Assembly (NCBI RefSeq): GCF_032854445.1
Contig: NC_088300.1
Location: forward strand, 29,741,608 to 29,805,607
Length of the DNA: 64,000 nucleotides
Source: Liolophura sinensis
Lineage: Eukaryota > Mollusca > Polyplacophora > Chitonida > Chitonidae
Direction of reading: 5' to 3'
Shown here: in pieces, positions 25,401 to 59,431 of the stretch
Layout: each line of letters starts with the position of its first letter
Numbering within the stretch: position 1 is the stretch's first letter
Position numbers and translations under genes: made by a program
The notes under the pieces: model-generated
Told to the model about the DNA's origin: nothing
Database searches by the model: none
What the model saw: only the letters and a program-made list of their open reading frames with translations

Positions 25401-28400
25401 CCATGTCTCACGCACGTGTTATTTCGCTACAATCAAAACTCTTCTCCTATTTCAGAAGAATTCTATTTTCCCGCTTTATCAAATCGGGTACCTTCAGTTC
25501 AACATAGAAAACACATTTCTGCCAAGTTTCCGAAACCAGATATATCACATGTTCTAACCTCATTCTCGCATTGTTGTGACAGCCAATTGCCATATACTGG
25601 ATTGAGTCATGTGCGAGTAAATGTCTACAGGTAACTGACAGCTTATAGATTTCAACACTGACCAATTAGATGCATTTATTTTCATTAATCCGCCCCTTGG
25701 AATAGTCCCAAGAATGAAATCTCCCACCAAATCTAGACTAGCAGACGAAGGTCCATTAATTTAAATACAGCCACGTGCTCAGTGAAATGGATGCACAGTA
25801 ATTTTCGTGACATCGCTATGGATTTTGCTACTAAACCATTTCAGTAAAGCCAGGTAGTTGTGTATTTCAGTGGTTTACGTAACACACGTAACCCATTTAC
25901 AGTGAGTAGAATTAAAAACAACTGACAACATATCAGGTGGTCATATCGGGTCTCTGCTGTGATTGACGGGTCTCCTAAACTATGTTGAAACTTCAAAGAC
26001 TATACCCAAAGAAAGCTTGGGATTACCCATGATATCAATACGACTCAGCTGTTTACATTTGAATACTCAATAGGTTATAGCTTGGCACCTCCTCCTCCTA
26101 AATTTACATGTAATAAATGTCATTGTTAGATAAAGGCCTACATTGGTAAGGTGTTATCATGAGTTCTGATTCAAGCAAATCACTTGAAAATGGATTTTCT
26201 TACTCCAACAAAGGCAAACCTGTAATGCTGGCCTAATCAAGATAAGTCTGAGCAGTGTTGTACTTATGTCTGTAAATTAGCTTCTAACATGCATATGGGT
26301 ATTTATTTACTTTAAACAAGACACATATTCGTCGTTCAGTGATGTTTTGAAAGACCTGCACGCTTATCAATGTGGGCCTATTTGTTATCGTTCCACCGTC
26401 CAACCTGTATTTACCTGTTCTGGCATGACATACTCTCACATGCATTCTGATGCATATGTAAAAATATGTACTAGTGCCAACATTTCGTTGCTCACTGAAG
26501 CGCTTTGGCAAAACTCACTTGGCACACCATGTGTGCAATGTGCATTCTGTCAGTAGCTAACACATTTAGCGTGTAGATATACTACAAAAAGAATCCCCAC
26601 TCACCTCATCACTCAGTGGGGGATTGAAGTTCACACTCTCCACTGTAACACACAAAATGAACTATGTGTTATAAAGGTTGGCATTTACCCTCTCCACACA
26701 GCTATTTACAGAGATATTACGGACATTTAAAAAAAATCTCAAGCAAAACAAAAAACTATATTGCTTGCCACAGACCAAACCCCTTATTTTAATGAGTAAT
26801 ATAACTAACAATGAACTGTGACAAGCTGGTGGCTTTACATGAAACAAGACAGGTAATTAAATTAAAGGTTTTTGGCGATGTCTAGAATGAAGCTATTTTA
26901 TAAAGCATTAACACTGAAATAAGAGCAAGTGTAGTCAAAGTGATAATATCACAGAAAGAAACATACTGTTGATTTCTGACTTAGACCTCTCTTTGTGTTG
27001 GGCAGACCGCTTTGATGAGATCCTTCTCGGGACATCTTGTAATAACTGTATAAATACAGAAACTCAAGCATATATAAACAAGCGCTAATTTAGCAAGGTA
27101 ATGTCATCTTGCATTATAGCCACGTTTTAAAGAGAATGGCAGATGGCAAAAAAACACAATATCAAAACTTCTTAACAAGGAAGTCCTTTCAATCTTTCAA
27201 AAAATAGTGTGCACTTTGAGACACTCTAATTTTATCTTTGCTTTTTTTGTTTTCGTTATATTTTCTGCAATACAGGATTCAATGAATGATGGATCATGTG
27301 ACATGCCAGAGGCTATAAGATAATAACGTACAGCTAAAAACTTGTGAAGTGAAACCTCCAACTCTATGAATGAATAATCAGCTTAAATTAAAGTTACAAG
27401 ATTAACCATTACAAGCTATCTGCATGTTGAGAAGGGTATATGAGGATTTATACTCTGGGTGTGAAATTTTAACCTTAAGTAACAGGCGAAGGGCTACAAT
27501 TTTACCCCCAGGGTTTAAATCCGCATATACTGTTCTCAACACGGGGGTAACGATTTTGTACCTACCATATTTATAGAACAGAAAACCAGTCTCGTGTATA
27601 TATAAAGCAGGGCTAAGAAAAAAATCTTCCTAGCTATGTCGACTGCAGACAGTGCTGGTATAGCATGACTTCACAATGATGTGCCATGGAACGCAGCATC
27701 ATAAAGAAAAATGACGTCAGCCTGAGCAGTAATATAGCTGTGATGAGCCAACGACAATGGAAAATCACAGATGATGTAGGGACAGGTGATAATATTCAAT
27801 GCCATATATTTCCACACACAAAAAGGTTCAACACTTGGTGCAGTCCAAAAATAAACCTACGCCTTCCTCTTCATTTTCTCCAGGCTCTGAATACTGGACT
27901 TCGACAGGGTTGTATGCTTTCTCCAATAGCTCCTTGGTTAAATGACGACCCAGTGGTCCATGGAAGAATGGATGCTAAAACACACGAGAGCGCTTGTCGT
28001 TAAATGCCATAAAAACACTCACATGTACATGTAATAAAGTTAAAATGAAAACATAGAGAGTGAAATCAACATAAACTGTAATGAAACTGCCTTTACATAC
28101 ATGAAACAATACAGTTTTGGAGTGATTTCCTTACGACAACAAAGTGACATCCCAATACAAAATGGCATCCTGATTACTTCATGGCTATTTGCCTATATTG
28201 TAACATGACAGTTCTCATGCTTCATAAAATTATCCACAAAATATAAATTTTTTTTTCAATATAACGAACCCATATAGAAACATAATTTAGCAGATGTCTC
28301 ACACTTTATATACAAGCACCATGGTAAAACTGGCTGATCAAGCCTACAGTGCTGTAAAGCTACAACTTTGGCATTGGTCTTTGGGACGTCAATCTGTTGT

Positions 28401-31400
28401 TGTCACATGTATTTTGAAATACACATTTATGCATTACAGACTTAAAATAACAAGCTTGGCTCACCTCCTGTAGCCTTTCAGCTGTTGGTCTCTTTTTGGG
28501 ATTTTTGGTTAAAGCTACTTTGACAAAATTTTGAAACTCTGCAGACCTGAAAGGAAAACAATAATTAGAAATTTGTGTTGGGCATAAAATGTATAGTGTA
28601 TCTCCATGCATAACATTCATGGCCCCATTTCAGAACGACAACTGTACTCCAAATGAAAAAAAGACACTCTGTATTCGATAGCCTTTAACCAAATGTAAAT
28701 CTCAATGTGGAAAATATATAAAAGAAGAACTGTATAAATGAGTGAATAAATATTGACTCGTCAAATCTGTACATGTGTATGTAATATGGATCAAATCAAA
28801 TCAAAATATCATCCAATACAACCATGACAAGAAATGTCACAGCCTCTCACCATTTGTTTCTGTCCTTCAACTGTGGCGGCTTGAAGCCACTTTTTGACAT
28901 AATAAACAGAGCTCTGAAACCAGACAGATGGTATTTCATCACAGGGTATAATGACATCATCATGGGATGAGTATGGATCAATGAACAATCTAAGGCAAAG
29001 CTTTATCAAACTGAACTGCCTGCAGGATTGATGTTACAAATATCAGCAAATGCTTTTATTTTATGTCATTAATCTTAGTTATTGCCACCGTGTGGTTGCC
29101 TCTGAAGGCAGTGGTGGCAGGGAAATCCCATGGATTCCCTTGCCCAGGATGAGACTGAGCCAGCTTCTCATATATCCTGGTAGATAGAGAACAACCACTT
29201 TTAACACTCATGCCAAGGTTCATAAATTAAGGAAAAAAAAAAGAAAGTAAAAAGCTACAATACCTAAAGTATTTCATCTGAAACCAGATTACATTCTAAC
29301 AAAGTAGGTCATACACTGACTACAGAAGAGCACCACAGAAGAACAATGTGTACATGAATACAACACAAACACTGTGCAATGAAAGACGGTGGTACCTCAT
29401 AGGATGTAGATCAAACATTGGAGGTTGTAACTCAGCAAACTCTATGGCTGTGATGCCAACAGCCCAAATATCACATTGTTGGTTGTAACCACCCTTCCTC
29501 TCCACCGCGGCAACCTCAGGGGCCATCCTGACAACGGAAACCAAACCATCTTAGCCAATTACACCTGGCTCATTGAACTTGTAATATGTGTGTACTACAT
29601 TAACAGTTCACCCATGAATCACTTTGGGGGCCTCCGTGGCACATGTGGTTAAAGCGTGCCAGCATGGCGCAATGACCTGTGAGCCTCTCACCAATGCGGA
29701 TACTGTGAGGTCATGCTGACTTCCTCTCAGCCGTACGTGGAAAGGTCTACCAGCAACCTGTAGATAGTCGTCGGTTTTCCCTGGGCTCTCCCTGGTTTCA
29801 TCCACATCATAATGCTGCTCGTCATCGTCTAAGTGAAATATTCTTCAATACCGCATTAAAGGCCAATCAAATAAATAAATAAATAAACAAATCACCTTTG
29901 CAAAGGCAGGAATGAAAAACAGACTACACAGATTCAAATCTGACTTAAATTGAGGCAGACAAGATACCCCATTTTCAGCCACACTCTTTAAATTATGTCA
30001 CAAACCAACAATTTTCGTCTAGTATCTGTTGTTATTCTCATTCACATACAAGCAAACAAAGCAAAGATTGATACAGTCTATCAAGTGAAAATGACAACGT
30101 TCTCTCCACTGTACACTTCCTGTTAGATTATAAATGGCTTCAAATGTTAAAGCAATAGCACAAGCAGATGGGAGTAATTTGATTGGCCTATCTCATAATG
30201 GCAAGCAATATTTACATAATGTGGTACATTCATAATATCTACTGAAATCGTTTTCCTATCAAGTGAAGCATTACAATGTAAAGAGCCAGATTGGATGAAA
30301 AGGATCTTGACATACAGATCAGAGTTAATTAACATGACATAATTTGTTTGGATTAGACCATATAGGTTATGAATAAAGATAATACAGATACTGATGCCTT
30401 CATTAAACTGATTATAAATTTATGTACATGTATAAAAGATTGTTAAGATAATTACTATGCAGACATTATAATAATATTATACACAGCTTTATAATTCCCC
30501 TGAAAAATGTCCTATGGGAACTTGAAAACGCAAAGCATTATTTCCTAAAATGTCACCATTATATTTCTCAGAGGAAGTAATAGTGTAAATTCAAGACATC
30601 TATTGGAGATTAATGAAAGTTTAACCCTGTAGAAACTAACACTATTTTCTGTCAGTACAAGAATATACCACTAATAGCTCTAGGTCCTTTCTAGGCTATT
30701 TATTTATTGTGGGTAAATGTTATCCTAGCGGGACACATAATTTGAAATCGTTCAAATTATCATATTATTATTCTTAGCCAGGCACCACAACAATGTATTC
30801 TTTCTGTCTTTTGTTCTTGTTAATCAGCAAAAAATCAATGCCACCTAATCTCTATGCTAGTCTTCAGTACTGGGCCCGTTGTATATGATACCTGGCATTC
30901 TCCAGGTTCAAATCCAGTACATTCCTTTCCATTTTTCGTTCTTATTTCTGCTATTCAGCATACAATTAATCTGGAAATCAATGGAATTGCTGTCTTTGAC
31001 AGCTATTCATGTAGCCCAGCACTGCTATCTGAGAGCAGTGTTTCCTTTCAATGGTTGTCACACAAGCCCCAATGGACATTGTATCTAGCTCCCAGTGGTT
31101 TAAACCCAGTTAATTCCTGCCAATCTTTTTTCGCTTTTTTCCTCATTATCATGAACTTTATAGGCATCAGGCTACCACAGCTGAAGTGGTAAAATCTATA
31201 ATTCCAATGATTTAACCAGCTGTCATAAATGGTGTCTATTATTCTGAAGAAATGGTACCAACAGTATACCTTATTTATGTATTGGCGAGGAGGCAAAAGC
31301 ATGCAAGATGTAATAAGTCATTGCCACAAAACATGTTCACTATTTAAACTCAGTGTAGTCATATCAAATCTGAATATATCCAGCCTTGCATGTTTTTTCA

Positions 31401-34373
31401 ATGGAAGTTATGTAAAACAAAAACTTACGGAATGAAATGTTCTAATCAGTCGTGTTTCTTCTGAGAAGATTACATATGAAAGTTTACTGTGAAAATTCCG
31501 CTGATTATCTTACACCTTAGCATGCTTCGTTGTTTCCAATTTACACCAGTAATCTTATTTGCCTAGGAGGCAAAATGAAAAGCTCTCACAAAACTTTAAA
31601 GAAGTTAATGAAGATGAAAACATACTTACCAATACGGAGTACCAATGAAAGACTTTCGTTTGCAAATTGTTGCAGTTATTTGGGCAGAAACGCCAAAATC
31701 AGCTGCAAGATACAGATGTAAAGTAAACTGAGTAAAAAAATATACAGAAGGCAATATAGGGATAACAAGTATAACCATTATGACATATCTAAACTAAGAA
31801 AATATTAAAAATGGAAAGCATGAAAAATTCATTACTTACCTAATTTAACATCTCCCTCGTCTGTAAGCAATATATTAGCTCCCTGCAAAATAAGTAAAAT
31901 TGTCCAACAATACATATACATATTAGTCAAACTAAGCTGTTCACGTTTGCTGGTAAGGTACATTATTTCATATGAAGGTCCTGAAGATACACTGCTTTCC
32001 TTTTATACAATCTTGTATCTCACACATGCCGCTGCTTTACACCCTAAACAGTGCCATTTTATCAGAATATGACAAAGGCAAGTAAACATCATGGTAACAG
32101 GAAAAAAACTCATTTGCTAAGGTAAGGTATATGCACTGGAGCATTGAAGTTCTCACTGTTAAGTTCTCATATTAAATACATGTATGAACTAAAACTGTTC
32201 CTGTTATGCTTTGACTGTGGACGAAAGCATTGGCTACTGAGTCTGTGTAAAATTTAAAATATATAGTATGACTTAATAGCAAAATTAGCTGACACATTTT
32301 TGAACAATTGAGCCCGGACAGGTACAGTGCCTTCGTGTAATATACTATACTATAGTATGAACAAGTTCAGCAGTACATGCTTTACCACAACGCACACATA
32401 TACCTTTATATCTCTGTGCATCTTTCCTTTATTGTGGAGATATCTTAGGCCGTTTAGAGTTTCCTTGCAGATAAAGGCAATCTGGGGTTCTGACAAAGGG
32501 CCTGTGACTAGACAGAGGGAGAAGAAAAAAAAAAGGTCAATATATTGCTCTCCCAAGTCATTTTCTCTCCCAAGTCAGCACAAACCTAGCAAAGTTAGCA
32601 TTACACATTCAGCTGTATCTATTACTTCAGCATACCTGTAACAGTACAAACAGTCTATAGCGTAATTACATGTATATATATTATCACATGATGAAGCACA
32701 TAAGTAAATGCTCATCATATCCCCTTACTTCCTCTATGACCTACATGTACCATATTTATCCTAAAATTTCATCCATGACTAAAGTCAATCATTTTGCAAT
32801 CATCCATGACTGAAGTCAATCATTTTGCATGACTCTGATCATAGGAGAACTGACTTCTGGTTCGGAAGAGATAAGATGATACCGTACAGGAAAGAGGTAA
32901 ATTTCAACACTAAAATAATATTGCATGACTTTAATTTGCCTCTTTAAACCTCCTCTTTTGGGGGTAAACTTTTAGGGTAAATACCGTATTTACATGTAAA
33001 TGGTGGAGACCTTTTTCACATACATGTGTTATTACATGTACTATTATCATGCTTACTGTGGTATATATCTTGCATAGATCCTCCACCACAGTATTCCATG
33101 GCAATCCATAGCTTATCCCTCCTGTGAAAGCAAAGTAAACCTTGCCAATATAAAGGTATTGGTAATAAAACAATATCCTAAATGCATCAAGTTTCATATA
33201 CAAATCCATACCTAATCTTTCTAACTATTTGAAAAGATATAACTTTATTCACTAATCTATTCCATCTTTAAAATCAGCAAATCTTTAAAATCGGCGTCTT
33301 CCAAAGTTCAGAAGACTTTTTCGACTGATTAAGTATTTGAAGTGAAATACATCATCAACATTGATACAAAATGTGCTTTATTAACAGACAGCCAAAAAAA
33401 CAAAAAAAAAACAAGGTAAAAATCAACTCCAAAAGCCAAGTGTTGCTGTTTGTCCACCAAACAGTTTACACTATTTAGTCTACATCTTCATCAACATATA
33501 TATATATATAAGTATCACAACTTTGACATACCTCAAGTAACTGCCGAAGTAAGCTACAATATTGTGGTTTCGGCATTCTCGCATCATCACAATCTCTTGC
33601 TGTATAACAGCAAAGTCATCTCCTGCAACAGTTAACGTAAGATTTAGACTGTTCCAAGACATAAAAAAGAAACTTTACTTATTACCTGTAGAAGACAAGT
33701 GGTCTTTAACAAATGTTGGACAGCCATGCTAGCACAGAACTCATATGAAGTGAGATCAGAGGAATGTACAAGGTCCCTGTCCAAGGTCGGGTTTGAACCC
33801 TTACTTGATGTATCCTAATGATTAAAAGACTAACACTTTGATAATATCTTGACCTTCTTCTGCTTCAAACATGCTTTAATACCGGAGAATAAATTTAAAA
33901 CGTAACTTTTAGTTACGTTAATAATTAACACTTCATTTAAAACAAACAAAAAAAATTAAACACACTAGTAAATTCACCAAATGATTCTCAAACACTCTGT
34001 TGTTTACTAGTACAGTATGTGCAGACTACTGTTAATGTACATGTATGTGAATGTGTATCTGTGGCCACCTATCATATCATGTACATGACTACTGTTAATG
34101 TACATGTATGTGAATGTGTATCTGTGGCCACCTATCATATCATGTACATGACTACTGTTAATGTACATGTATGTGTATCTGTGGCCACCTATCATATCAT
34201 GTACATGACTACTGTTAATGTACATGTATGTGTATCTGTGGCCACCTATCATATCATGTACATGACTACTGTTAATGTACATGTATGTGTATCTGTGACC
34301 ACCTATCATATCATGTCTGTACATTTACTGGAGATTCAAATCATCTTTACCTTTCTGTTGTTTAACCTTTCTG

Positions 34374-40032: not shown

Positions 40033-40290
40033 GGGACCTCCGTGGCTCAGTCGGTTAGCGCGCTAGCGCAGCGTAATGACCCAGGAGCCTCTCACCAATG
40101 CGGTCGCTGTGAGTTCAAGTCCAGCTCATGCTGGCTTCCTCTCCGGCCGTAAGTGGGAAGGTCTGTCAGCAACCTGCGGATGGTCGTGGGTTCCCCCCGG
40201 GCTGTGCCCGGTTTCCACCCAGCATAATGCTGGCCGCCGTCGTATAAGTGAAATATTCTTGAGTACGGCGTAAAACACCAATCAAATAAA
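40033..40290 (+). mobile_element. Full-length tRNA-derived SINE (family 1) with 12-bp TSD
   Basis: The tRNA-like head (CCTCCGTGGCTCAGTCGGTT, then a B-box-like GAGTTCAAGTCC) is followed by a body with a GTCGTATAAGTGAAATATTC segment and a short AATCAAATAAA tail. The repeat TCATACATAGGC occurs directly before (40021-40032) and after (40291-40302) the element, a perfect 12-bp target-site duplication showing L1-style retroposition. This is the reference copy for family 1 in the window. Confidence 0.92.
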
Positions 40291-40303
40291 TCATACATAG
40301 GCT

Positions 40304-44455: not shown

Positions 44456-45613
44456 TTATTTGTTTAGTCCTAGAATTGCTTTAGTTTGCGCAACAGACTT
44501 TTGAACCATTCGTTCCACCTGTGCTATGTTAATCTCTGTCTCGGTAGCGGCGAAAGCCTCGTTCGTCTCGCTGTTTTGATCTCCTTCGTTGTCATGTTCA
44601 CTCAAGGTGAGACCTGCGACACGACTACCACCCCTGCCTCTACCACGCCCTCTACCACGCCCTCTGCCACGCCCTCTTCCCCTTCCCCTGCCCCAACTTT
44701 GCCCTGTTCGTTGTCTGACGTCACTCATATCACCGCAATTGGCAATCTCTTTTACTGTCGGATCGACTGTTACTAAACAGCTATTATTGTTCTGCAATTG
44801 CCACACTTTAGCCCCTTTCCACCTTAGAATGTCATAAATATCTTTGACTAGTGCATCTTCGTCGATACTCAATCCCTTCTGTTCCAGCTCTGCCTTCACG
44901 ACGGCATCGACGTCAGGCGTGAACTGATCCAATGAAATCTCTTCCCGCGCGCTTCCAATAATGACATGTGTCAGAACCTCTGCGTCTGTCAGTGGTACGT
45001 ACTGTCCTCCAGTGATGAAAGACAACGCCTTGAAAAACTTGACGTATGGTAAAATGCAAGGTTGACACCCCACTACATAAATCATGACGCCAATCTCGGA
45101 CAGGTCACGTGCTGTCTTCAGCGGGTCGATGCCGTTTGGACAACCATTCGGGAACCCGTCCCCACCACGTCCGCTGAGCCCGTGGGGTGGGGCATCGGAG
45201 ATTAACACACATATTTTGACAGAGTCCGGACGCCAGCTAAGTTTGAACACCTGGTTTAAGGCGTCGGCAACGGCTTCTGGGGTGTCCCCGCCCCCATCAG
45301 CGCTACACTCATTTAGCCACGATTTCATGATAATGACGTCACTTGTGAAGTCATGTGTCCGTGTGACGAAAGTGCTGTCCTCTGGCGGATGATCTCTGTA
45401 CTCCACCAGCGCCAGGCGTACATCAATGTCTTCGCCATGTAGCGTAATGCCCTCGACAATCTTCCGTATATTTTCCCGGGCCTCATTTATGTACGACCCC
45501 ATACTACCAGTGCAGTCCATGGCGAAGGCAAGATCAAGGCTGGTATCTTCCACTTCGGAACTTTCCGAATCTGAGCCGGGATTTGAAGAGTGTTCGAGAA
45601 TATCTGACGCCAT
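44456..45613 (-). CDS. vWA-domain protein with RG-repeat tail, intronless (385 aa)
   Basis: Single open frame from ATG 45613 to TAA 44456. Residues 1-25 are acidic and serine-rich. A von Willebrand A domain follows, about residues 26-225, beginning LDLAFAMDCTGSMGSYI with MIDAS residues DxTGS, then VRLALVEYRDHPP, a GGGDTPEAVADAL segment and ISDAPPHG. These resemble the vWA module of vwkA alpha-kinases and its stand-alone relatives; no alpha-kinase domain is present. After about 80 less conserved residues come ten Gly-Arg repeats (about 308-329), an RG-type region usually linked to RNA or protein binding and arginine methylation. A charged C-terminus includes VERMVQKSV. There is no signal peptide or membrane segment, so it is probably cytosolic or nuclear. 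Its function is unknown. It is paralogous to the gene at 58388-59431. Confidence 0.88.
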   Translation of the reverse strand: MASDILEHSSNPGSDSESSEVEDTSLDLAFAMDCTGSMGSYINEARENIRKIVEGITLHGEDIDVRLALVEYRDHPPEDSTFVTRTHDFTSDVIIMKSWLNECSADGGGDTPEAVADALNQVFKLSWRPDSVKICVLISDAPPHGLSGRGGDGFPNGCPNGIDPLKTARDLSEIGVMIYVVGCQPCILPYVKFFKALSFITGGQYVPLTDAEVLTHVIIGSAREEISLDQFTPDVDAVVKAELEQKGLSIDEDALVKDIYDILRWKGAKVWQLQNNNSCLVTVDPTVKEIANCGDMSDVRQRTGQSWGRGRGRGRGRGRGRGRGRGRGGSRVAGLTLSEHDNEGDQNSETNEAFAATETEINIAQVERMVQKSVAQTKAILGLNK

Positions 45614-47400
45614 TTTTTCACGATATTTTCAATATATCCGTAAAATAAATAAAAATAAATAAAACACTGCTTACGTCACCTCTACAGTAAGATGTAAACG
45701 TTGACTAGCCAGTTGTCACACATTTCAGCCTAGTTACAGTCCACCAATACACAGCGAACATACAGAATTGTAGGCACTATTATAGATATAGCATGAATAT
45801 ACGTATGGAGCCTCGCAGCACTCGTGTGTCAACAACTATACACAAAGTACAGCCTAACTACTGGGCCTGGCTGATCAGTTGCTATATGTATATCCGTTGC
45901 GGTTACGGCTGACAGGCAGTGGTGCAATACTGCTAAGTTAGCTATTTCGGATACGTGGTGCAATTCCATAGGCCAAATACAGGCATGTACACACAGGAAA
46001 TAAAGCTAGACCATAGCCATGCAGTTAACATACACATGATAAATGTCTGTTCATGGTGACACCTTCAAGTGTTCGAAGAAATGCTATTGTCTGTACATTT
46101 GAATATACATGTTGCTCGAGGGAAGGTTATCGCGACTAAACTCCGCACAGCGATCAGTACGTCTGCTGTGCGCGCTATTTCCTGTTATTTCATCAGCCTG
46201 TATATATTCCTCCGCATTTGTTTTCATGTCATTGTCTATTTAGTCTGAGGGCAACAGAACATCCTGTCTAATAAATTTGAATTAACGCCACTGCATTTTT
46301 TTGACCTAATTCATCCATGCTAAGCGCTGTATGAGTTGCTACTAAGTAAAAGCATTCACTTGAACAGTTTGAATAAAAAATTAACGTTTTTTCTTCTTTT
46401 TTGGGGAGGGTAGAATAGACTTTAGCAGGTGTCTGTTGTATAAGTCCTTCAATATGGTATCCTCGTCATAAATCCTCGTCAAATCCCTCCAATGCTGAGC
46501 ATTCTCGGGATTGCACTCGTTACGATAGAAGGTTCAGCGATATCGAGTACAGTACCGCTATGTGCGGTGTTAAATCCTTAATCATGTTGTCGTCACTAAT
46601 CCTGCCCATACACACGTAAGGCTTACGTTTAAAATTAACCAGATTTTACTCTTTAAAGGACAAACTTGATTTCAGTTTCACAGCCGAAAACATTAAATTA
46701 AATTTTTTCACACTGTACTAAAATTAATGCTCTTCTTGTTAGTGGATGGTTTGATGACTTCCGACAGATGTTGAAGTCTTATATATGCTCACTTGGTATA
46801 TGAGAGACCCGCGATGCCGTGATAATCTTCCTGCATATATGGTTGTGTTATCAATATTCATGTATTGGATCTCTGTCCACGCGTGCAAGGGTCGTGTCCA
46901 TATTTCCGTTTAAGCCCTGGTCCGCACACACAGTGACTGTGGGTTGACTTGCATGGTATTCCTGAAATATCAGAAATAGACATCAGTATGGAGGGTAAAA
47001 CGAGGGCAGCAACGACAGTGTGAGAGTTGACGAATGGTCACACCTACGCGGTGAAATACGGACTCGTGTCAATTTATCTAAGTTAAAGATTTATTTCTCC
47101 AGCTGTTCATGTAAATGCTTAAAAAGAATTACACGACTCTAGTACCATGGTTTAAATAGAAATAGGTAAAAAAAATGCAATGATGTAAAAGGGTCATTAG
47201 ACTTCACTGGTTGTATGGCACGACTATATGTACCTGCTAAAGAGCGGACTGATAATTTACACGGAAACCCCGTGAATTGGTTAAACTTCATACTGCGGAA
47301 ATTTAGCGACATACATATCCAAGCCAAAAAAGAAAAAAAGAAAAAAAAATCGAACTAAATAATAAAGCATATCATAGTACTGAGAAATTTAGATATTATA
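45614..47400. other. Intergenic, upstream of the first vWA gene
   Basis: No ORF with coding character and no repeat of the families above. It should contain the vWA promoter, but no clean TATA box stands out; AT-rich TTTATTT tracts lie just upstream of the ATG. Confidence 0.4.
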
Positions 47401-47411
47401 GATATTGTCCT

Positions 47412-47653
47412 AGGGGGCTCCGTGGCCGAAGGGATAAACACACCAGACTCAATGACTCAAGAGTCTCGCACCAAAGCGGTCGCTGTGAGTTCAAGCCCAG
47501 TACATGCTGGCTTCCTCTCCTTTCTTGCGTGGGGAGGTCTACCAGCAACCTGTTGATGCCCGGTTTCATCCCACCACAACCCTGTCCGCCTTCGTAAAGG
47601 TGAAATATTCTTGAGTACGGCGTAAAACACCAATCAAATAAATCAGTAAATAA
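47412..47653 (+). mobile_element. SINE family 1, near full length, 10-bp TSD
   Basis: Head GGGGGCTCCGTGGCCGAA, B-box-like GAGTTCAAGCCC, and the shared 3' body and tail. It is flanked by ATATTGTCCT at 47402-47411 and 47654-47663. A short deletion in the body separates it from the copy at 40033. Confidence 0.9.
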
Positions 47654-48111
47654 ATATTGTCCTTATGACAGTTTAAATTTATCACCTACCGGGCCATTAA
47701 CGCGTGGTTAATCTTGGATTATTCAGTTAGATATTACAGTTGTATATGTTTTGAACCTCCCTGGAAACTAATGACTATATCTACTTACTGCTACCTGTCC
47801 TCCGTGGAACTAATTATACATATATTTTCCTAAATTGTGACGCCAATTTTATTAGTGGAACTGATGTTTGGGAGTTTGACTTCGTACATTAATTTACCGG
47901 TTGACGGACTGAATTGTGATTTGGATACTTCACTTCCTCTCTTAAATATTTTTCTGGAATTTTATATATAACTACATATATCCATGTGTCACTCCACAAT
48001 CTGCTGTGATATTTGATTTCCACTTCAAGACTTACAAACAAGAACAACGCAAACTGTTATGCACAAACTTCCGGTGCTTCAACTGTGCACGTGAGTCTTT
48101 TCTAAGACACT

Positions 48112-48312
48112 TACTTGTAGAAAACCGGGCATGCAGAGCCCGGAGGATACCCACGACGATCCGTAGGTTTATGCCAGACCTTCCCATGTACAACCGGAAT
48201 GGAACCCAGCATGAGCTGGATTTGAACTCACAGCGTTCGCATTGGTGAGAGAGAGGGGCTCCTGGTTCATTGTGCTGCGCTAGCACGCTAACCACCAGTC
48301 TACGGAGGCTCT
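48112..48312 (-). mobile_element. SINE family 1, 5' part
   Basis: Reverse-complement copy carrying the tRNA-like head (rc of GAGCCTCCGTAGACTGGTGG) and the middle, truncated before the AAATAAA tail. It lies about 0.4 kb upstream of BLVRB. Confidence 0.88.
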
Positions 48313-48696
48313 CTTTCTTGAGTTGGGACCAGCTACTTCAACAGTGTATTGTGACATTTGACATGACCATCAATGCCCCAGGTAACAATTACTTCCGTGC
48401 ATTAGAGTGCCGGACATTTTTCCGATGGACGCTATCAAAGCTCTGTTTGCCTGCTTCCGAAATGCTGTGCCATACCCAAATGATACTCGGTGTGGCGCGA
48501 CTCCAGTATACGCTCAGATGTGTGCAGTAGCAAACAGAACGGCGGGCTGTGGGGACACGGCCTTGTGAGCTTACAAAGGTCACGGAGTACGAGCAGATAT
48601 TCACGTACACACACACTCGCTAGAGGGCCCGACAGGCGTGTGATAACTGCACAGTGAAACTCTTCAGAACAATCAATATACTCTGTGGCAGGAGAC

Positions 48697-51600
48697 ATGA
48701 TGAAGGCAGGTTTTAAGGTGGTCATCTTTGGAGCTACAGGACAGACGGGAAAGGCATGTGTGGAAGCTGCTCTACGGGAAGGTCTGTACAGATGTAGACT
48801 TACATTACAGAGTGGTTCACCCCTCGTGCTGAGAGGTGATATAGACATCATTAATTCATACAGTGAACTGCAGCTTGTATATATAGGGGCCAATGTATTT
48901 GTAAGGTATTTTAGCCGCTCTGAGGGCTTGAATGGGTGTGTAAAGGTTTTACATGGATGGCTATGCTTCATGTTAAATAAACTCGACACTGTGGATATAT
49001 GCGCCACTTATAAACAGTTAGCGGAGATGGGTAAGATGATACTTTTTAAGCATTTCCATGAACAGTTAGAATACCACCCCTAACCAAGGTAAACTGAGGA
49101 GAGGTCGGACGGACCAAACCAGTGAAGTGTGACCATTATTTTTCCAATTATACCACATTTTCGGCACTGCTCTAGCTTATGTTGGTGAATGAGTCAGTAG
49201 CATCTGTTTCGACGCCTATAGATTTAACGGGTTGATATGAATGTGTAATCTTATGTTCTGTCTGTGTACTCAAAAGTTTTAGTTGGAAGTCAGTATACGA
49301 GTGTATCCAGATGCCCTACATATTTCTGTGGGATTAGCCTCAGGAAGTCTGCCAGCAACCTGCGGATGGTCGTGGGTTTCCCCCGGGCTCTGCCACGTTT
49401 CTTCCCACTATAATGCTAGCCGACGTCGTATAAGTGAAATATTCTTGAGTACGGTGAAAAACACCAACCAAATAAATAAATAAAATAGCCTTAGGAATGC
49501 TGATTATAACATTATATAACGCTTCGCTCTAAAAATAATAACAATTATGTGCTAAAATTTAGCAGAAAATCTGTCCGAGTGATGCCTGATATCTGAGTGT
49601 TGCTATAATATATTCTGCTGTTATATCAGATGATTAGCACACATATTCTGTTTAACATTGACTGTATTAGACTAATACGATATTATGTTAAATATGACGA
49701 AGTATTATGTTATAATAACATTCAAACATCGTGCAGACAACAGATTTTTAATCTGATACTTAACAGATTATTTGTTTGAGTGTAAAACGATTTTTTTTGC
49801 ATGAGAGACATATTCAAGCAGAATGTAAATACGTAATGATCCATATTCACTCTTCAATAGGACGGTTTTATGAGAGTCTTAAAGGTGAAGCAGGCCATTG
49901 ACATTAACTTAGTCATCGTGCTTATTACGGTTGAACAGGTTCTTATGTACAACAATCCTAGATATCGCTGTTCAGATAATAGTTAATCAAAATTGTCCTG
50001 TCAGATAAACAGATATATTTACAGTTCCATGGCATGCAAATGGAAATCTGTATATAAGTTATCTTGAAAGTCATTCAAGATAACCTTGTCAGTTTGCGGG
50101 GTCATTTTTTGTACTTCATATCAAAGTCTTCAACTGGCTTCGTTTGGCAACACATATTCAAGTTTGACCTCTGATAACGTTATTGTGACCTCTAATGGAG
50201 TTTCAAATCAGCGTCCGCTTTATATCTTATGGTATTCACATCTCATTAAGCTGGTCGCCGTCATATATATTTTCACAGAACTAAATATAGTCAAGGCGTG
50301 GTTTGTGAGATGGACATTATCAGTCACGTTAATAATGTGTGGCGCACAACTAATCCTGCAACTTTATGTTTCAGGCTTGAATAAAAATAGTGTAAATTTC
50401 TCGTGTAATGTGTGCTTTTGCAAGAAAGCACTAAGCCTGATCTGACAATAAATACATGTTTTGGGGCCAATGAAATGGTGATGTGCATGACGTGTGATAT
50501 GGCAACAGAAGCTCACCTTACAATTCAGATATTTAACTACTTTTAATTCAGTGAAAAAATCTAATGTTATTGAGATAAAGGTATGAATTGTCGTTCTGCT
50601 GATGCTTACCAAGTTTTTATGTTCACTTTCCCTTTAAAGATTATTACAACGGTTTCTGCGCTTTCAGATGGAAAATGGTATCGCACTATAAAATATATAT
50701 TTGTCTGTGTTGCTTTGGGTAATTATATCGCCCAATATTGTATGTAGGATTGAAGGTCAGGGTTCTCGTGCGTGATCCAACTCGACTGTCATCTTCCGAC
50801 AATTTAGACGTCATCCAAGGGGATGTAACCAACGAGGATGACGTGAAAAAGGCTATAAGTGGACAAGATGGTGTGGTTGTTGCAATCGGAACAGGAGTGG
50901 ATTTGTGTATGTCATAAGTATTGCATATATATGTAACTGATGTTCTTTTGTCGAGTAACTGGAATGAAGTTGGTGGTTGTCTTTTGATGGCCAAGTCAAA
51001 CGGGACGTTGGTTCAGTAGCATTGCTCGGATAGCAAATTTTGAAAATCTCGCTGCTTTCGTTACAGTAGTCGGGTCTGTGGAAGAAATAAGCGGTCGACG
51101 GTACTTTCTGGTGTAGTCTTTCATGAAGTTCGTTGAAGGTTTCTTGCTTACCACCATTATAACTTGTCACACTCACCTGTGGAAGTCGGTAGACTGTTAT
51201 TTGGAATTCCCTTGTTTACCAGTGCTTTCATTTGAATTCCACAAATTACATGTTAAAGAATAATACCATTATCGTGCGTTTTCGTAAGCTTGTTAATAAC
51301 ATCCATGGTATTACCCTATTTCTTCTAATTTTTGGGACACTTGGTATGCTCATTTTAGCCAATATATATGTAATTGTGACATGACTATTGCGTTTCTTTT
51401 TTCTCAAATGGTTAGACCATCTATAATAAGCAACATGCTCATATCTTTACTTTTCCAAAAGGCGAGTAAAGAAATGCAGTATTCTACTTTCAACGCTACT
51501 AATATCTATCCTATAAATTAGAAGAATTAGGTTATTAATGCCAAACGAGACCACAAAAACACACATTAGGACTTCAGCCGAGAACAGTAATTACACATAC

Positions 51601-54600
51601 ATTTATATCTGATTGGACAGGTGTTTATAGCCATATTCAAGAACTTTTCACTTTTTCGATCACGGCCAGTTTCATGAGTGGAAGAAACCGCAATGCCCCT
51701 CTGGCCTTAGGGAAGTTACTTACGAACTCTCCCACGCGTGGCGCACACCATAATGGCGTAAGACAAGGTGCCTTCAACGAACGTTAGGTTGTCCAAACGA
51801 GCTTCGTTGACCACTTATCAAGACCCCCACAAACACTGACCAACAGCGAATCCGCAAATTTAGTGTCCAAGGGTGGAACTGAACTCGCACCCCCTGTGAC
51901 TTAGCGATTGAAAAGATGAAGTAAAAATTGCATGCAAGCCTGTTTTTATTAGCCATAATGGTTCGGCCAGTACTCGCTCTTAGTAATTGAAAATTGCATG
52001 CAGGTTTGTTAAAATCTATCATGATGACTTTTACATCTTTAGATCTGCAGATTTGGTGTTTTTGGTATTTTCATTTTAGCACACAGTAGAATATCTGGAA
52101 TGTAATAATGTTCTCATGCACGCATACAAGTGGATAGGCTGTGAGTAGTTCTCACTATTCTGACCTTGCCGTGCCTTCACTATTTATTTCAGCGCCAACA
52201 ACTCTGTTCTCTGTGGGAACCACAAATATTGTGGCCGCCATGAAGGAGTGCAATGTAAAGAGGATATCAGTTTGTAATTCTGGTAAGGACAATTCCTGTT
52301 TATTTAATTGTCGCGCTCAAAATTATTTCACACATACGACGGCGGAGAAAACCATGCCGACTCATTGCGTTGAAAAACATGTGACAAACCTAGCTGTATT
52401 ATTCCAGTGACAAAGCAGTCATCATCTGCATTCGGTTGAAACATTAAGTTATATTCTTGTACACGAAATGCAAGACATGCTCATCTGAAGTGAAACATTG
52501 CGTGAATACTGTTTTTTTCCTCATGAAGTGTGTTCAATGGTTGAATGAAGTCTATTCTTCTGCATGAAATGCTAAACATTATCTCAAGTAAAACATTGAT
52601 TGGATACTGTTTTTTCTTCATGAAACGTCAGACATTGTTGAGTGGTTGTACGAATGCAGAGCTACGTAAAATGCCAGACATGATGTATAGTGAAGCGCTG
52701 TATTAGTTTGATCGTTTATGACCTGTGATCGTTGGTGGTGATCTATGACGTCACATCAGAGTTGCCACTTAAAACGTAAGACTGCTCGACTTCTGCATTC
52801 AAAGTGAATGTACACATTTGCCGTTTGGACCTTGAAACGAACTGTTTGAATACAAAAAAACATGTGGCGTCATGGATACCTTTTCCATGCGTCCCAACAG
52901 AGAACTGTCGAATTCCATGCTTAAAAAAATATTACTCGGTTGGAAAAATTCTGATAAAAAAAATCGATCTGTTTTCCACGACAGTGTTTGATATTCATCC
53001 ACAATTTAATAGAAAGTCTGTTGCCTGAGTGATGCTAGAATGTATTCTGTTATTGAGGCAGATTATTTTGTTAAATATAGCATATATATAGCATCTATTA
53101 ATTCAGTCTAGAGATAACAGGATATTGTGTTGAGTATGACAAAATATTATGTTTTAATAACAGAACTCATTCTAGCATCACTCAGGCAACAGAATTCCTG
53201 TTAAAATGAAGAGATTATTTTTTGAGTGTAATATTCCAGTTTACATTTTAATGTTTTCTTTGCCTTTTAAGTTACCCCATGTCACAGGAGTGTACAAAAT
53301 TTGAAAGACTGCAGTACAAATATTAAAACTAGAGCAGTGACAACAGTTTGATGTTTGGCAAGTCACACGTAACCGCTGAAATACAGCCACTTGTCTATTT
53401 ACTTCAGAGGGTTTTATTCTATCTAAATGCACAAGTAGTAGCAAATTACACGCCTCCTAACAACATGGCTTAAAATGAGTATAACAAATAGAAATCTGCA
53501 TCTGTTCTCGGTTTCAGCATTTGTATTTTTCCCTGAGGAGAAATTGCCAGCACGCTTTGTTCCCATAACCGAGGATCACAAACGACAGATAAAGATATTG
53601 GAGGAGAGTGACTTAGATTACATCATTGTATGTCCTCCACATATAGCCGGTAAGTAAACGTGATTTGGTTATGCTTGACATAGCTGGCCATTTGTATAGA
53701 AACTCGTGGTACTGTTCGTGATACTTAACGCCTGCATTATGTTTTTCATAACAGCCATAGCAGTCACAGTCGACATGGACAAAACGTTTGGAATCTTCGG
53801 CGTTTTATGGTTGTTACAACTAAGATTAGTAGAAAAACACATTGCTTTTAGTGGTTACAAGTTAGTGTCCGTCCCACCGTTCGTCCGCCCGTCCTTCTGT
53901 CCACTTCTTTGTAAACCCTATCTCTTCAAGATTATGACCAGATATATCAAACTTACACTAAACGTACACTATTCACGTTATGTGACCTTCGTCAATTTAA
54001 TTTTAAACATCACTGAGATCTTTTAAGTTATACGTTGTGCCAGGCCTGTAAAATAGGATATTTAATTTTTAAGCAAAATTTTCATCAATCGTGTACCAAA
54101 TATACCATACACCACATATTTTTTTAATCAAGGACCTTGCGCTTTCACCTATATTATCTTGCACTGTGAATTGCAATTGTGGTTAAAGTCGAGAGGTATT
54201 TAGTTCCTTGTAGGGTTGTTTTTTAACATCTTTCTTTTGACCACGAACTTAGAATAACGATGGTAATTGAAACTCATTACTACTTCTAATCTCTTTATCT
54301 TGTAAACTACTCAGTGTACACGTGGAATAACTTGACAACATAAAAAGCGTGTATTTATAGCTGTTACAATTACCTTTCGTAATGTTTCAAGGACATGAAA
54401 GGATGAAATCAGTTTTGTTGCAGTTGTACACTTATACCAAGATTAGCACACTTTTACCCAGATTGGCACACTTTTACCAAGACTAAGATTATGACGTTTA
54501 ATTAAATTAAATTTATTGGGAAATAATTTTGGACTTATTTTTGAAATATCAAAGATTCTGCATATCAATCCGTCTTGTTTTCACGAATATTGCAAGCATA

Positions 54601-54790
54601 CAACTTCATTCATTCATTTGTTTCTGTTCTTAAAGATGAACCGGCCACGGGAAAGATCGCTGTCCAAGAGTCGAGTAATGCGTCTAGGAAAGTTAGCAAA
54701 TACGACTTGGGAAACTTCCTGGTGAATTGCATGTTTCCAGAGACGGATCAGTATCTCCACAAAAGGGTTGGGGTTTCCAATCCACCCTAA
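48697..54790 (+). CDS. BLVRB: BLVRB: NADPH-dependent flavin / biliverdin-IX-beta reductase, complete, 5 exons
   Basis: Reduces flavins, and in vertebrates biliverdin IX-beta, with NADPH; a soluble cytosolic atypical short-chain dehydrogenase. Exons: 48697-48781, 50748-50906, 52193-52282, 53518-53649, 54636-54790. All borders are GT/AG with matching phase, giving 206 residues plus TAA, the same length as human BLVRB. The N-terminal Rossmann motif is VVIFGATGQTG (8-18), followed by VLVRDPTRL. The active-site Ser111 (SVCNSAF) and His153 (VCPPHIAG) fall at the human residue numbers. The late SKYDLGNF block matches human SKHDLGHF. A tandem second ATG at 48700 is possible, and a GTG further upstream is ignored. 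Introns 1-4 contain a SINE fragment, MITE-like repeats and a tandem duplication. Confidence 0.95.
49340..49488 (+). mobile_element. SINE family 1, 3' fragment in BLVRB intron 1
   Basis: Begins in the body at CTGCCAGCAACCTGCGGATG and runs to the AAATAAATAAATAAA tail; 5'-truncated. Confidence 0.88.
49558..49790. mobile_element. Diverged relative of the 53-kb MITE-like element
   Basis: Shares ATTATGTTAAATATGACGAA, TATTATGTTATAATAAC and AGATTATTTGTTTGAGTGTA, in order, with 53017-53235. Its inverted repeats are degraded. In BLVRB intron 1. Confidence 0.6.
51635..51755 (-). mobile_element. Degenerate SINE family 1 fragment in BLVRB intron 2
   Basis: Only the body is recognisable (TTCACTTTTTCGATCACGGCCAG to CTCTCCCACGCGTGG), and divergence is strong. 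Confidence 0.45.
52458..52710. repeat. Imperfect tandem duplication, about 101-bp unit
   Basis: Two units starting near 52460 and 52561 share GAAATGC.A.ACAT, AAACATTG and GGATACTGTTTTTT-like blocks; a third partial unit starts near 52665. In BLVRB intron 3. Confidence 0.6.
53017..53193. mobile_element. MITE-like element with 26-bp perfect inverted repeats
   Basis: The terminal segment 53017-53042 (starting TCTGTTGCCTGAG) is repeated exactly in inverted form at 53168-53193, and the match continues imperfectly inward (TTCTGTTATT). It is 177 bp long, AT-rich and non-coding. The true ends may lie a little outside, because the related copy at 49558 also shares the flanking GATTATTTGTTTGAGTGTAA. 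In BLVRB intron 3. Confidence 0.75.
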
Positions 54791-54821
54791 GGTGCTCGCC
54801 TACATCTGGCCATGATGCGGA

Positions 54822-54886
54822 TCCTGAGTCTGCAAGACATATATTAGTCTGCACGACATATATATAGTCTGCAAGACATATATTAG
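54822..54886. repeat. Short tandem repeat, about 20-bp unit
   Basis: Three copies of TCTGCAAGACATATATTAG with small changes, just after the BLVRB stop codon and probably in its 3' UTR. Confidence 0.8.
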
Positions 54887-55404
54887 CAATGAATTAATTT
54901 AAAGAAGGGTTTTACCTTTGTGCTCCGATTGTGAATTTAGTTCGAGATTGTATTTATGAAGCTGGCACCAATCGGGGGTTTGTCTGTAAGCCCCATTTCA
55001 GAACACAGAAATTACGTAAGACAAACGTAACGGGAATGCAATGGAGGCTGGAAACCAACGAGTTAGAGCCTCAACCCCTTATACTATGAGATTATATTAG
55101 CGAACGTGACTATATGGGGTCAATCACCTTGAATTTCATGCTGTAAGAACTGCAGTACAGTAGGGTGATTAATTCGTGAAAAAAGTATGGTTTACGTATG
55201 ATTTACAGTTAATCAAATGGAATTTCATAAGATTTTTTATCAACCTGGTACTGTATAAGCTAGTAAAAAATGCCATGAAATCATTGGGATTTTATTGTAA
55301 GTATATATGCTGAAAATACTGCAATGAAAGTTAAGTATTGTAACGGTGATACGGATATGACGTTGCATGTGTAAACGTGAGATAATGAAGGACCGAATGA
55401 TACC

Positions 55405-55515
55405 GAAGAGCATTTGTTTATCAAGGAGCATTTGTTTATTGAAGAGCATTAGTTTATCAAAGAGCATTTGTTTATTGAAGAGTATTTGTTTACCCGAAGA
55501 ACATTTGTTTACCGA
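55405..55515. repeat. Short tandem repeat, about 18-bp unit
   Basis: Six or so units of the form GAAGAGCATTTGTTTATC. Downstream of BLVRB and not part of any recognised exon. Confidence 0.85.
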
Positions 55516-55865
55516 CGAGAATGTGTTTAATCCACTGCCTTTTCACAACAAATACTCGTTTTCATTATTAAAAATATCAATGTTAAAATGGAATCGTGAT
55601 GTTTTTTTTGGAATATGAAATTAAACACATATTATAAATTGATATATTTCAGTTGGTGGACTTTATTGCACTTATTGTCGCCAAGACCTCTGAAAGATTC
55701 TTCCAGAAGCTAACATTTCTGTGACCACTAAGTTTGCCCGTTCGAATCCAGTTCCCATCGACTCAACCGTGACTTTACAGAAGAGCCCCAAAATAGAATT
55801 CTACTGTAACATCCTGAAAGCTACAATAGAAATGATTTTTTTAAAACCATAACTATGGTCAAATT

Positions 55866-55903
55866 CCCCCCCCCCCCCACCCCCCCCACCCCCCCACCCC
55901 ACC
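55866..55903. repeat. Poly-C tract
   Basis: Runs of 13, 7, 7 and 4 C separated by single A. The complementary strand has four G-runs and could form a G-quadruplex. Confidence 0.9.
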
Positions 55904-56084
55904 TTCAAAATGCTGAAAGAAGTGTTTTGTGTCTCCTGATCGTGAAAACTGGAAATATATTTTCTTAGCTTTATCTCAAAGCCTTTGTACATTATGTTGC
56001 GTATCACTCGCCCATTTCATTAGATGGTATAATGTTAGCCTGTATTTAGTTTTGCTGTCTGCAGTTCTTTAAGTCAGAGTTTCA

Positions 56085-56212
56085 CCAGGCACAAGCCGTG
56101 GGTCGAGGTTTCCCTAGGGCTTGGCATGCCTAGGTTTCTCCACTCAAACATCAAGCTCAGTGCCTTCATATAAGTGAAATGTTCTTCAGCACATAGCACT
56201 AACCAAACAACC
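56085..56212 (+). mobile_element. Degenerate SINE family 1 fragment
   Basis: The 3' region (CCTTCATATAAGTGAAATGTTCTTCAGC, ending ACTAACCAAACAA) matches family 1 with many changes. Confidence 0.5.
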
Positions 56213-56214
56213 GT

Positions 56215-58380
56215 ATATACATGTAGTAAGTACTTTTAATCTCTTGGAAGTCACACATAATGAGGTCAAAACAGAAAACTTTTATGTGTACAAAAGTAGC
56301 TAGAAATCATGGACAAGGTGTTGATCTGTAAAACCATGGGGCTCTGCTGGTCAGTTGAAGGTATCCCGAAAAACGGGAGATAACTCTTATTCAAGATAAT
56401 GTCTTATCATCACTAGGGTGATGGCGAAATAAACGACGAAATACTGAATCAAGAGAAACATTTCACCTTCGTTTCTCGCGTTAACATTACTCATATACTA
56501 CATTAATGTGTTACTACTAACAAAAGCATTGACTTCCATCTTAATATCAATTGGTGGATGGCCGTATATCTTCTGTGTGTAAATTTCTCCTCTTTGCAGC
56601 GTGCACAAACATAAGATGTGAATATCGCCAGTATAGTGAGTAAATTGTCTCTAATGCGCCAAAGTCGGGGTTACAACGGTTACTTATCTTTCCTTCACCG
56701 ATGAATCTTGGAACCCGTCCTAAGTGAAACGATCTTGGAATGACGATAAACCATAATGAAATAAATAACCCAACACCCACGAGTGCATATATTGTACAAA
56801 TATATTAATTATTCTGCTTTTTGGGCTGAATAGAACTGCAACGTCATCGCAATGAAACACAGTCACTAAATTAGAAAAAAAGATTGTGTTTGGAGACAAA
56901 TGAGTCTACTTTTTTGTCAGATTACACTTCTATATGTGTACTGAAAGTTAAACCTATGTAATTTTGTCACATAATCAGTTCATGGCCACGTGGTATTGGT
57001 GCCTGACTTTATTCGCTTGTGGAGGGGCTTGTATTGCCAGACGACGAAGTTCGATTTGCAGATGTCATAAAAAAAGAATCTATCGACCGTTGAGCTCAAC
57101 GAATCCGTTTCAATCGACTGACGACTCCCATCTAGGGGAGCTAGCTCATAAACATATATAAATATGTAGGCCCAAGGGCGGAAAAAGCATGTAGGCCCTA
57201 TATTAATAGTAATGTACAGTGGGAAAATTGCAGTTTACCATGTTTAGTTTAGGGAGAAAATATATTTGCAATAGTGTGATGTTTTATTCAGCGAAGGGGG
57301 CCTGTTTGTGTTACAAGTATATATAATTTCCGGAAACTAAAAATTGGGGGGGGGGGGAGGGTAAAAAGATATGTCCTGTTTATATAGCTGATTGACTGGT
57401 GGTTGAACCAGAGTTTTCTTGATACGAGCTGGGCGCTCTAATTACTCGGCCAACGTGGTACGGTATCTTATACCACGAGAGCTAATTGGATAACTGATTA
57501 ATGGCAAACTTTTTTTCTCTCTGGTAAATGGTAGCCTGGTTAACGGTTTTGACACATCATCCAGAGTAACAACTACTAAAACGAAAGGAATACATGACAA
57601 GGTATTTTATCAATGTTTAGGCAAAATTCTTTTTATTAACTTTGCCCTGTATAAACATCAACATAAAGTAGACAGAATAAGAGTGAACATGAAATACACA
57701 ATAACTTTTAAACTACAAATATTTTTGTTAGCTATTTTCATTTCCTCGTTAAGTAACGCACTACGTGATGTGCTGTAATGCTGATGTATATATGTATGTG
57801 CTGATGTGATATATCCAATGAATTCCGTGAGAGCTCATGCAAAGGATTTCAGCGACAGAGGTGAAACAGTGAAAACCTTATAAAGTCAAACTATAACATG
57901 CAGTATGGAAATATACACAATACAGAACTGGATTCCTACATTCGTGCATTTGGCACAGCCATAGGGTAAACGATATGACCATGTGGTGCGGATGTGTTCT
58001 ATTCACCTTTAATAAAGTCATCACGAATTTATCAGTCAGATTATCTCGATCAGCGCCCTGATTGCACGAAGAAGTTGATCACAGGGAACAGAATTGTCTC
58101 CCCTTAGCTATACACCGTATATAGCGTATGCCCTAAAAAAAAAAAAAAAAAAAAAAAAAAAACTAAGCAGGTCACTATGTACCTTCCACAGTCCATGTGC
58201 GCGTATATACTGTTCAGTGTCGAAATGACCTTGGAACAATCCTTTGAGAGCCATAAGTTTCAATTTCGTTTCACCTACTTCGTTAACTTATATCAGATAG
58301 ATCTGGCAATTAATATTAAAAACACAGATCTACTTCCAAAAATGAAATTTACATAATAATGTCCTGTCTCTTCGAGAATA
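56215..58380. other. Intergenic between BLVRB and the second vWA gene
   Basis: Apart from the A28 run and a G-rich tract near 57346-57360, nothing was recognised. The two flanking genes converge on this stretch. Confidence 0.4.
58135..58162. repeat. Poly-A run of 28
   Basis: Uninterrupted A28 between BLVRB and the second vWA gene. No retroposed body could be recognised next to it. Confidence 0.85.
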
Positions 58381-58387
58381 GCTGTAC

Positions 58388-59431
58388 CTACTTAGCTTTG
58401 TTTCTCCATACAGATTTCTTGACCATTCGCTTTGCTTGTTCCAGTTCAATTTCCCTTTCTTCAGTTGAGTACACGTCGGGAGTTGAACCTCTTCCAAGGG
58501 ATAGCGCAGGAGCTGCCGCAGCCGGTTTGAACAGACTTTGGACAGCCGACATATCCTCGCATTTAGACAGATGCTGGGCTGACAATGGTGCCTCTTTCAG
58601 AGCCGCTTTGTTCAAGTGAAGTTGTCGAACATTAGCCCCTTTGCTTTTCAGTTTTGCGTGCACACTTCTGGAAACCCTTTCCTCGGCGTCGTCGTCCAAA
58701 TCTCCACCGTGCTCCCGAAGCTCTTGGACCACCTCCGCCTCCACATCAGCTATCCACTGGTCCAGGGACAGCTCCTCCTGAGCACCTCCGATTATCACCT
58801 GGGTAAGCAGGTGCGCACCTCTTAGTGGCACGTATTGACCGCCAGTCAGGTATGCCACCGCCGTGAAGAAGTCCTTATACGGGGAGATGGACGGCTCGCA
58901 CCCCACCATGTAGATCGTCACCCCTTTCTCGGCCAGCTGACGAGTGACAACCATTGGGTCAATGCTAGCTGGGCAGCCGTTCGGAAAACTGTCGCCACTG
59001 CGTGACAGCCCGTGAGGTGGAGCATCAGCTATGAACACACATATTTTAGTTGATTTATCCCTCCAGGACAACTTGAGAAGATCGTGAAGGCCATCGGCAA
59101 CAGCTTCTGGCCTATCCCCTCCACCTTTGGCACTACAGTTCTCCAGCCAGCCCTTCATAGTGCTCACGGACCCTGTAAAGTCATGGGGTCGCGTCACGAA
59201 GGTCTGGTCCTGGGGCGGGTGGTCACGGTATTCCACTAAAGCCAGTCGGACGTCGCTGGTTTCCTTCGCTACGATCTGTTCCACGATTGTGCGAATGTTA
59301 TCCCTGGCTTGATTAATATAGGAGCCCATACTACTCGTGCAGTCCATAACAAAGGCCAAGTCCAGGACGGAGGAATCATGCTTGGCCAGATCGGGTCTCT
59401 GTACACGGTCCGCAGCTACACCTGAAGCCAT
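58388..59431 (-). CDS. vWA-domain protein, intronless paralogue (347 aa)
   Basis: Open frame ending at TAG 58388-58390. I take the start as the ATG at 59431 (MASGVAADR, context ACAAAATGG) rather than the in-frame ATG at 59509, because a TATA box lies between them at 59496-59503 and the protein then begins like its paralogue (MAS...). The vWA domain starts LDLAFVMDCTSSMGSYI, keeping the MIDAS DxTxS, with VRLALVEYRDHPP, GGGDRPEAVADGL and IADAPPHGLS. The RG-repeat tail of the 44.5-kb copy is absent and an alanine/proline-rich stretch (KPAAAAPALSLGRG) takes its place. The C-terminal QAKRMVKKSV motif is shared. No signal peptide or membrane helix. Function unknown; it belongs to the vwkA-type vWA group without a kinase domain. 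Confidence 0.87.
   Translation of the reverse strand: MASGVAADRVQRPDLAKHDSSVLDLAFVMDCTSSMGSYINQARDNIRTIVEQIVAKETSDVRLALVEYRDHPPQDQTFVTRPHDFTGSVSTMKGWLENCSAKGGGDRPEAVADGLHDLLKLSWRDKSTKICVFIADAPPHGLSRSGDSFPNGCPASIDPMVVTRQLAEKGVTIYMVGCEPSISPYKDFFTAVAYLTGGQYVPLRGAHLLTQVIIGGAQEELSLDQWIADVEAEVVQELREHGGDLDDDAEERVSRSVHAKLKSKGANVRQLHLNKAALKEAPLSAQHLSKCEDMSAVQSLFKPAAAAPALSLGRGSTPDVYSTEEREIELEQAKRMVKKSVWRNKAK

Follow-up and report, generated by a model that had tools for sequence, protein, structure and literature searches.

The Locus and Its Genes

The window, a stretch of 64,000 nucleotides from the chiton Liolophura sinensis, harbors two related genes for vWA domain proteins, referred to here as A and B, in the order MAP4K (minus strand), A (minus), BLVRB (plus), B (minus) (Table 1). 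Reading of the ORFs places A and B about 13 kb apart, in agreement with the initial annotation of this DNA. Each coding region is one open frame that runs from ATG to stop without introns. The stop-to-stop frames of A and B extend over 390 and 402 aa, respectively. When the window was simulated 60 times with a first-order Markov model, the longest such frame to arise by chance was 289 aa, with a mean of 147 aa. Alignment of the two proteins (E = 1e-117) gives 50% identity over 357 aligned columns, with 67% identity over 212 aa within the vWA region, and confirms that the vWA motifs quoted in the initial annotation and the C-terminal motif are common to both ORFs. Given their common MAS start and shared tail motif, each coding region appears to be contained in full within one exon. 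The intronless state claimed for both genes thus holds for the coding regions, which are uninterrupted and agree at both ends. A and B are functional single-exon genes, a term that refers to the coding region, and they may have additional UTR exons. The Arg-Gly repeat found in A is missing from B. The TAA stop codon of gene A sits inside the sequence AAATAAA (44456-44462), which resembles a poly-A signal.

The genes beside the pair are intron-rich, as had been reported. The kinase exons of the MAP4K3-like gene are split, and the BLVRB-like gene has about five exons which, once joined, match PF13460 at 4.7e-39. BLVRB is single copy, and the genome holds no second copy that would mark a larger duplicated block.

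A dispersed repeat of about 250 bp is found at 47406-47700 and in ten more places in the window, including 40075-40293, 16012-16241, and 29670-29887, and its copies are 65-87% identical to one another. This repeat is probably a SINE, as judged from its start (GGCTCCGTGGCCGAAGGGATAA ... GAGTTCAAGCCC), which is reminiscent of a tRNA promoter; no tRNA was called in it by ARAGORN.

Table 1. Position and nature of the features at the locus, and of the next relatives of the pair in the genome.
Feature	Position	Strand	Description
MAP4K3-like kinase	9405..31793	-	Intron-rich, beyond A; pieces only
MAP4K3-like CNH piece	about 9405-9569	-	
MAP4K3-like kinase exons	about 29323-29550 and 31629-31793	-	Split
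Gene A	44456..45613	-	Single-exon ORF, 385 aa
Gene A, vWA domain	about aa 26-225		
Gene A, Arg-Gly repeat	about aa 308-332		
Gene A, C-terminal motif			EINIAQVERMVQKSVAQTKA
BLVRB-like gene	48697..54790	+	NAD(P)H-binding reductase; about five exons; between A and B, unrelated to the pair
BLVRB-like exons	near 48697-48781, 50748-50896, 52193-52282, 53535-53651, 54632-54790	+	Ends approximate
A28 tract	58135..58162	+	About 225 bp past the stop codon of gene B
Gene B	58388..59431	-	Single-exon ORF, 347 aa; vWA domain
Gene B, C-terminal motif			EIELEQAKRMVKKSVWRNKA
Next relatives	C6:43.95 Mb, C6:43.03 Mb, C10:29.39 Mb		24-34% identity to A/B; multi-exon

Domain Assignment and Putative Function

Both proteins score above the cut-offs of two vWA profiles, with 44.7 and 52.8 bits against PF25106 (VWA_4; cut-off 27), and 41.9 and 37.8 bits against PF00092 (VWA; cut-off 23.8). 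The MIDAS motif DxTxS (DCTGS/DCTSS) and the later Asp residue of DAPPHG are intact in A and B. In an AlphaFold model of B generated from two sequences, which is of low confidence and weak overall (mean pLDDT 52), strands and helices alternate in the order typical of vWA domains. The best Foldseek matches of this model are vWA domains (best E 1.8e-7), including those of LapA, VWF A1, integrin beta, TRAP, and mussel PTMP1. By their profile matches and their predicted Rossmann-like fold, A and B belong among the vWA domain proteins. With the proteins defined by PF25106 and PF00092 they have in common the domain itself, the MIDAS motif, and the predicted fold, whereas they are short and made of two parts, with a tail of their own, no secretion signal, and no domain repeats. 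Searches of the prophage-family and NCBIfam libraries yielded no useful match.

No signal-peptide-like or transmembrane stretch was found in A or B, which makes an intracellular role likely. Both are likely to be small intracellular proteins composed of one vWA domain with a MIDAS site, followed by a helical tail. Judging from the domain, the MIDAS, formed by DCTGS/DCTSS together with the Asp residue of DAPPHG, would hold a divalent ion and bind an acidic residue of a partner protein, and A and B may act as MIDAS-dependent scaffolds in intracellular protein complexes. Their differing tails, with Arg-Gly repeats in A only, might give each copy its own partners.

Both genes had been called “vwkA-type” in the initial annotation, a label that presumably likens their vWA core to that of Dictyostelium VwkA. 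In VwkA, the vWA domain is located upstream of an alpha-kinase domain (PMC1420674). In contrast, a profile search with PF02816 found no alpha-kinase match in A or B, consistent with the lack of a kinase domain stated for both genes at the outset, and the alpha-kinase matches of the genome sit on other contigs (C1, C5, and C9). The label therefore describes the look of the vWA domain only. It denotes a resemblance and should preferably be dropped or qualified. Literature searches on molluscan vWA genes that are intronless or resemble vwkA brought up nothing direct. A whole alpha-kinase domain on C9 (28013688-28014302) is contained in a single, apparently intronless open frame of 365 aa, with no vWA domain within the stretch read.

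Relatives in the Same Genome

A search of the 609-Mb genome showed that the close group consists of A and B only. Three distant, multi-exon relatives, two on contig C6 and one on C10, are of the same vWA subtype as the pair (FDTTGSM, GGGD, DAxPH, and GVxIYxVxC) and differ from it in their C-terminal part. In both C6 relatives, a phase-0 intron with GT...AG ends is found directly before the GVxIYxVxC strand, where it splits the vWA domain, and another phase-0 intron is located after that domain. Neither of them is present in A and B, which read through before GVxIYxVxC. This difference from the C6 relatives is the strongest evidence for intron loss in the A/B lineage, yet at such a distance the relatives may instead have gained introns. 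As they are only 24-34% identical to the pair, their gene structure is not necessarily the ancestral one. Intron-bearing homologs of this region, which the initial annotation had named as a test of its reading, were seen at that distance only, and as such they neither refute nor prove it.

The two multi-exon vWA genes on C6 (C6:43943500-43948500 and C6:43030000-43035500) are separated by 0.9 Mb and have a further, conserved open frame that carries a “DLxWSPWKL” motif. Another vWA locus, on C4 (17964050-18032940), consists of a unit of about 1804 bp that is repeated head to tail more than 30 times. Each unit holds two long open frames, one of 370 aa, in which a Thr/Pro/Glu-rich linker is joined to a vWA domain, and another of about 170 aa. 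Neighboring units look nearly identical, and the locus may be a single giant vWA gene with internal repeats or a series of separate genes in tandem.

Age and Origin of the Pair

A and B are an old duplicate pair under purifying selection. Between them, dN is about 0.40 and synonymous differences are saturated (ps 0.77), and the differences at the first, second, and third codon positions amount to 0.34, 0.26, and 0.65, respectively. Taken together, the third-position excess, the saturation of synonymous changes, and the value of dN indicate an ancient pair maintained by purifying selection. There is good support for an old, local duplication of a gene that was already without introns, since the group has only two members genome-wide, on the same strand and 13 kb apart, with saturated synonymous sites, and since the intron of the distant relatives is missing in both. 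A and B are each other's closest relatives and lie near each other in the same orientation, as expected of local duplicates and in line with the initial proposal of an old gene that duplicated locally. Comparison of the flanks of A and B revealed no homology beyond the coding match, only short dispersed repeats, and gave no sign of a recent segmental duplication.

We consider it moderately probable that a single-exon ancestor, most likely a retrogene whose parent was lost, was copied locally to yield A and B, whose products would serve as MIDAS scaffolds. The common ancestor of A and B would thus have been a single-exon gene, most likely a retroposed copy of an intron-bearing vWA gene, and the parent would then have been lost or have diverged past recognition. 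The ancestor would subsequently have been copied locally, leaving BLVRB between the copies, either through the landing of the new copy beyond BLVRB or through a later rearrangement.

Retroposition of the ancestor, which the initial annotation had put forward, is plausible and has a precedent in molluscs, where nAChR genes became intronless via retroposition and were then duplicated in tandem (PMC6896357). Like A and B, those genes are intronless paralogs close together, with intron-bearing relatives elsewhere. Unlike A and B, which are two copies with no parent, they form large families whose source relatives are intron-rich and clearly identifiable (PMC6896357). For amphioxus SYCP1, a retrogene is reported to have replaced a multi-exon parent (PMC5803294). 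In the case of A and B, however, neither a parent nor a tail was found. Searches of the 609-Mb genome (whole proteins and two short pieces, E up to 10) gave no intron-bearing parent, and there is no sense-strand A tract of at least 8 within about 800 bp behind A or B. The A28 tract behind gene B corresponds to T in the sense of that gene and hence is not its retroposon tail, in line with the earlier remark that no poly-A tract is left. Loss of the poly-A tract is expected at such an age, which makes its absence weak evidence, and the survival of a target-site duplication is not expected either, given the saturated synonymous divergence of the pair.

Alternatively, the family might have been intronless from the start. 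In that case, the introns at C6:43 Mb and C10:29 Mb would be later gains of the relatives, and the local duplication would have taken place without retroposition. We regard this as possible if somewhat unlikely. It accords with the failure to find a parent or a mark of retroposition, and with the distance of the intron-bearing relatives, whose C-terminal parts differ from those of the pair. However, the phase-0 intron occupies an identical position in two of the loci, indicating that, within their branch at least, it is old.

Acquisition of the ancestor from a bacterium or a virus by horizontal transfer, which would explain the missing introns, appears highly improbable. Bacterial vWA proteins of Lachnospiraceae, Ruminococcus, and Paracoccus do match the pair at 34-38% over about 115 aa of the vWA core, where they score about as well as the genome's own distant relatives. 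Nevertheless, nearly all the bacterial, plasmid, and phage matches (20-38%) end at the generic vWA core, and scans of viral contigs, phages, plasmids, and the genome collection matched neither the RDHPP...DAPPHGLS...FPNGCP...TGGQYVPL set nor the tail. In a small tree built with bacterial vWA domains, the pair sits on a long branch and, save for one unsupported long-branch row, falls outside the bacterial groups; owing to long branches, the tree is uninformative beyond that placement. Scans of viral contigs detected no relative of A or B. A recent horizontal transfer finds no support, as viral contigs, prokaryote genomes, plasmids, and phages matched the generic vWA core only.

Least probable of all is the separate retroposition of A and B from one parent into nearby places, which would be in line with two intronless copies devoid of flanking homology but would call for two insertions on the same strand, only 13 kb from each other in a genome of 609 Mb, an unlikely event, for genes that are each other's closest relatives.

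Significance of the Pair

More broadly, A and B might belong to a widespread lophotrochozoan family of single-exon vWA genes, in which a retrogene would have entirely replaced its intron-bearing parent and then diversified, and A might function as an RNA- or methylation-dependent adaptor by way of its Arg-Gly tail, although we hold this extended scenario to be distinctly unlikely. An intronless vWA pair is nothing out of the ordinary in these animals, and alone it alters no view of gene origin. It adds one clear, old case of single-exon paralogs beside intron-rich neighbors, and it fits reports on molluscan gene families in which local duplication came after retroposition.
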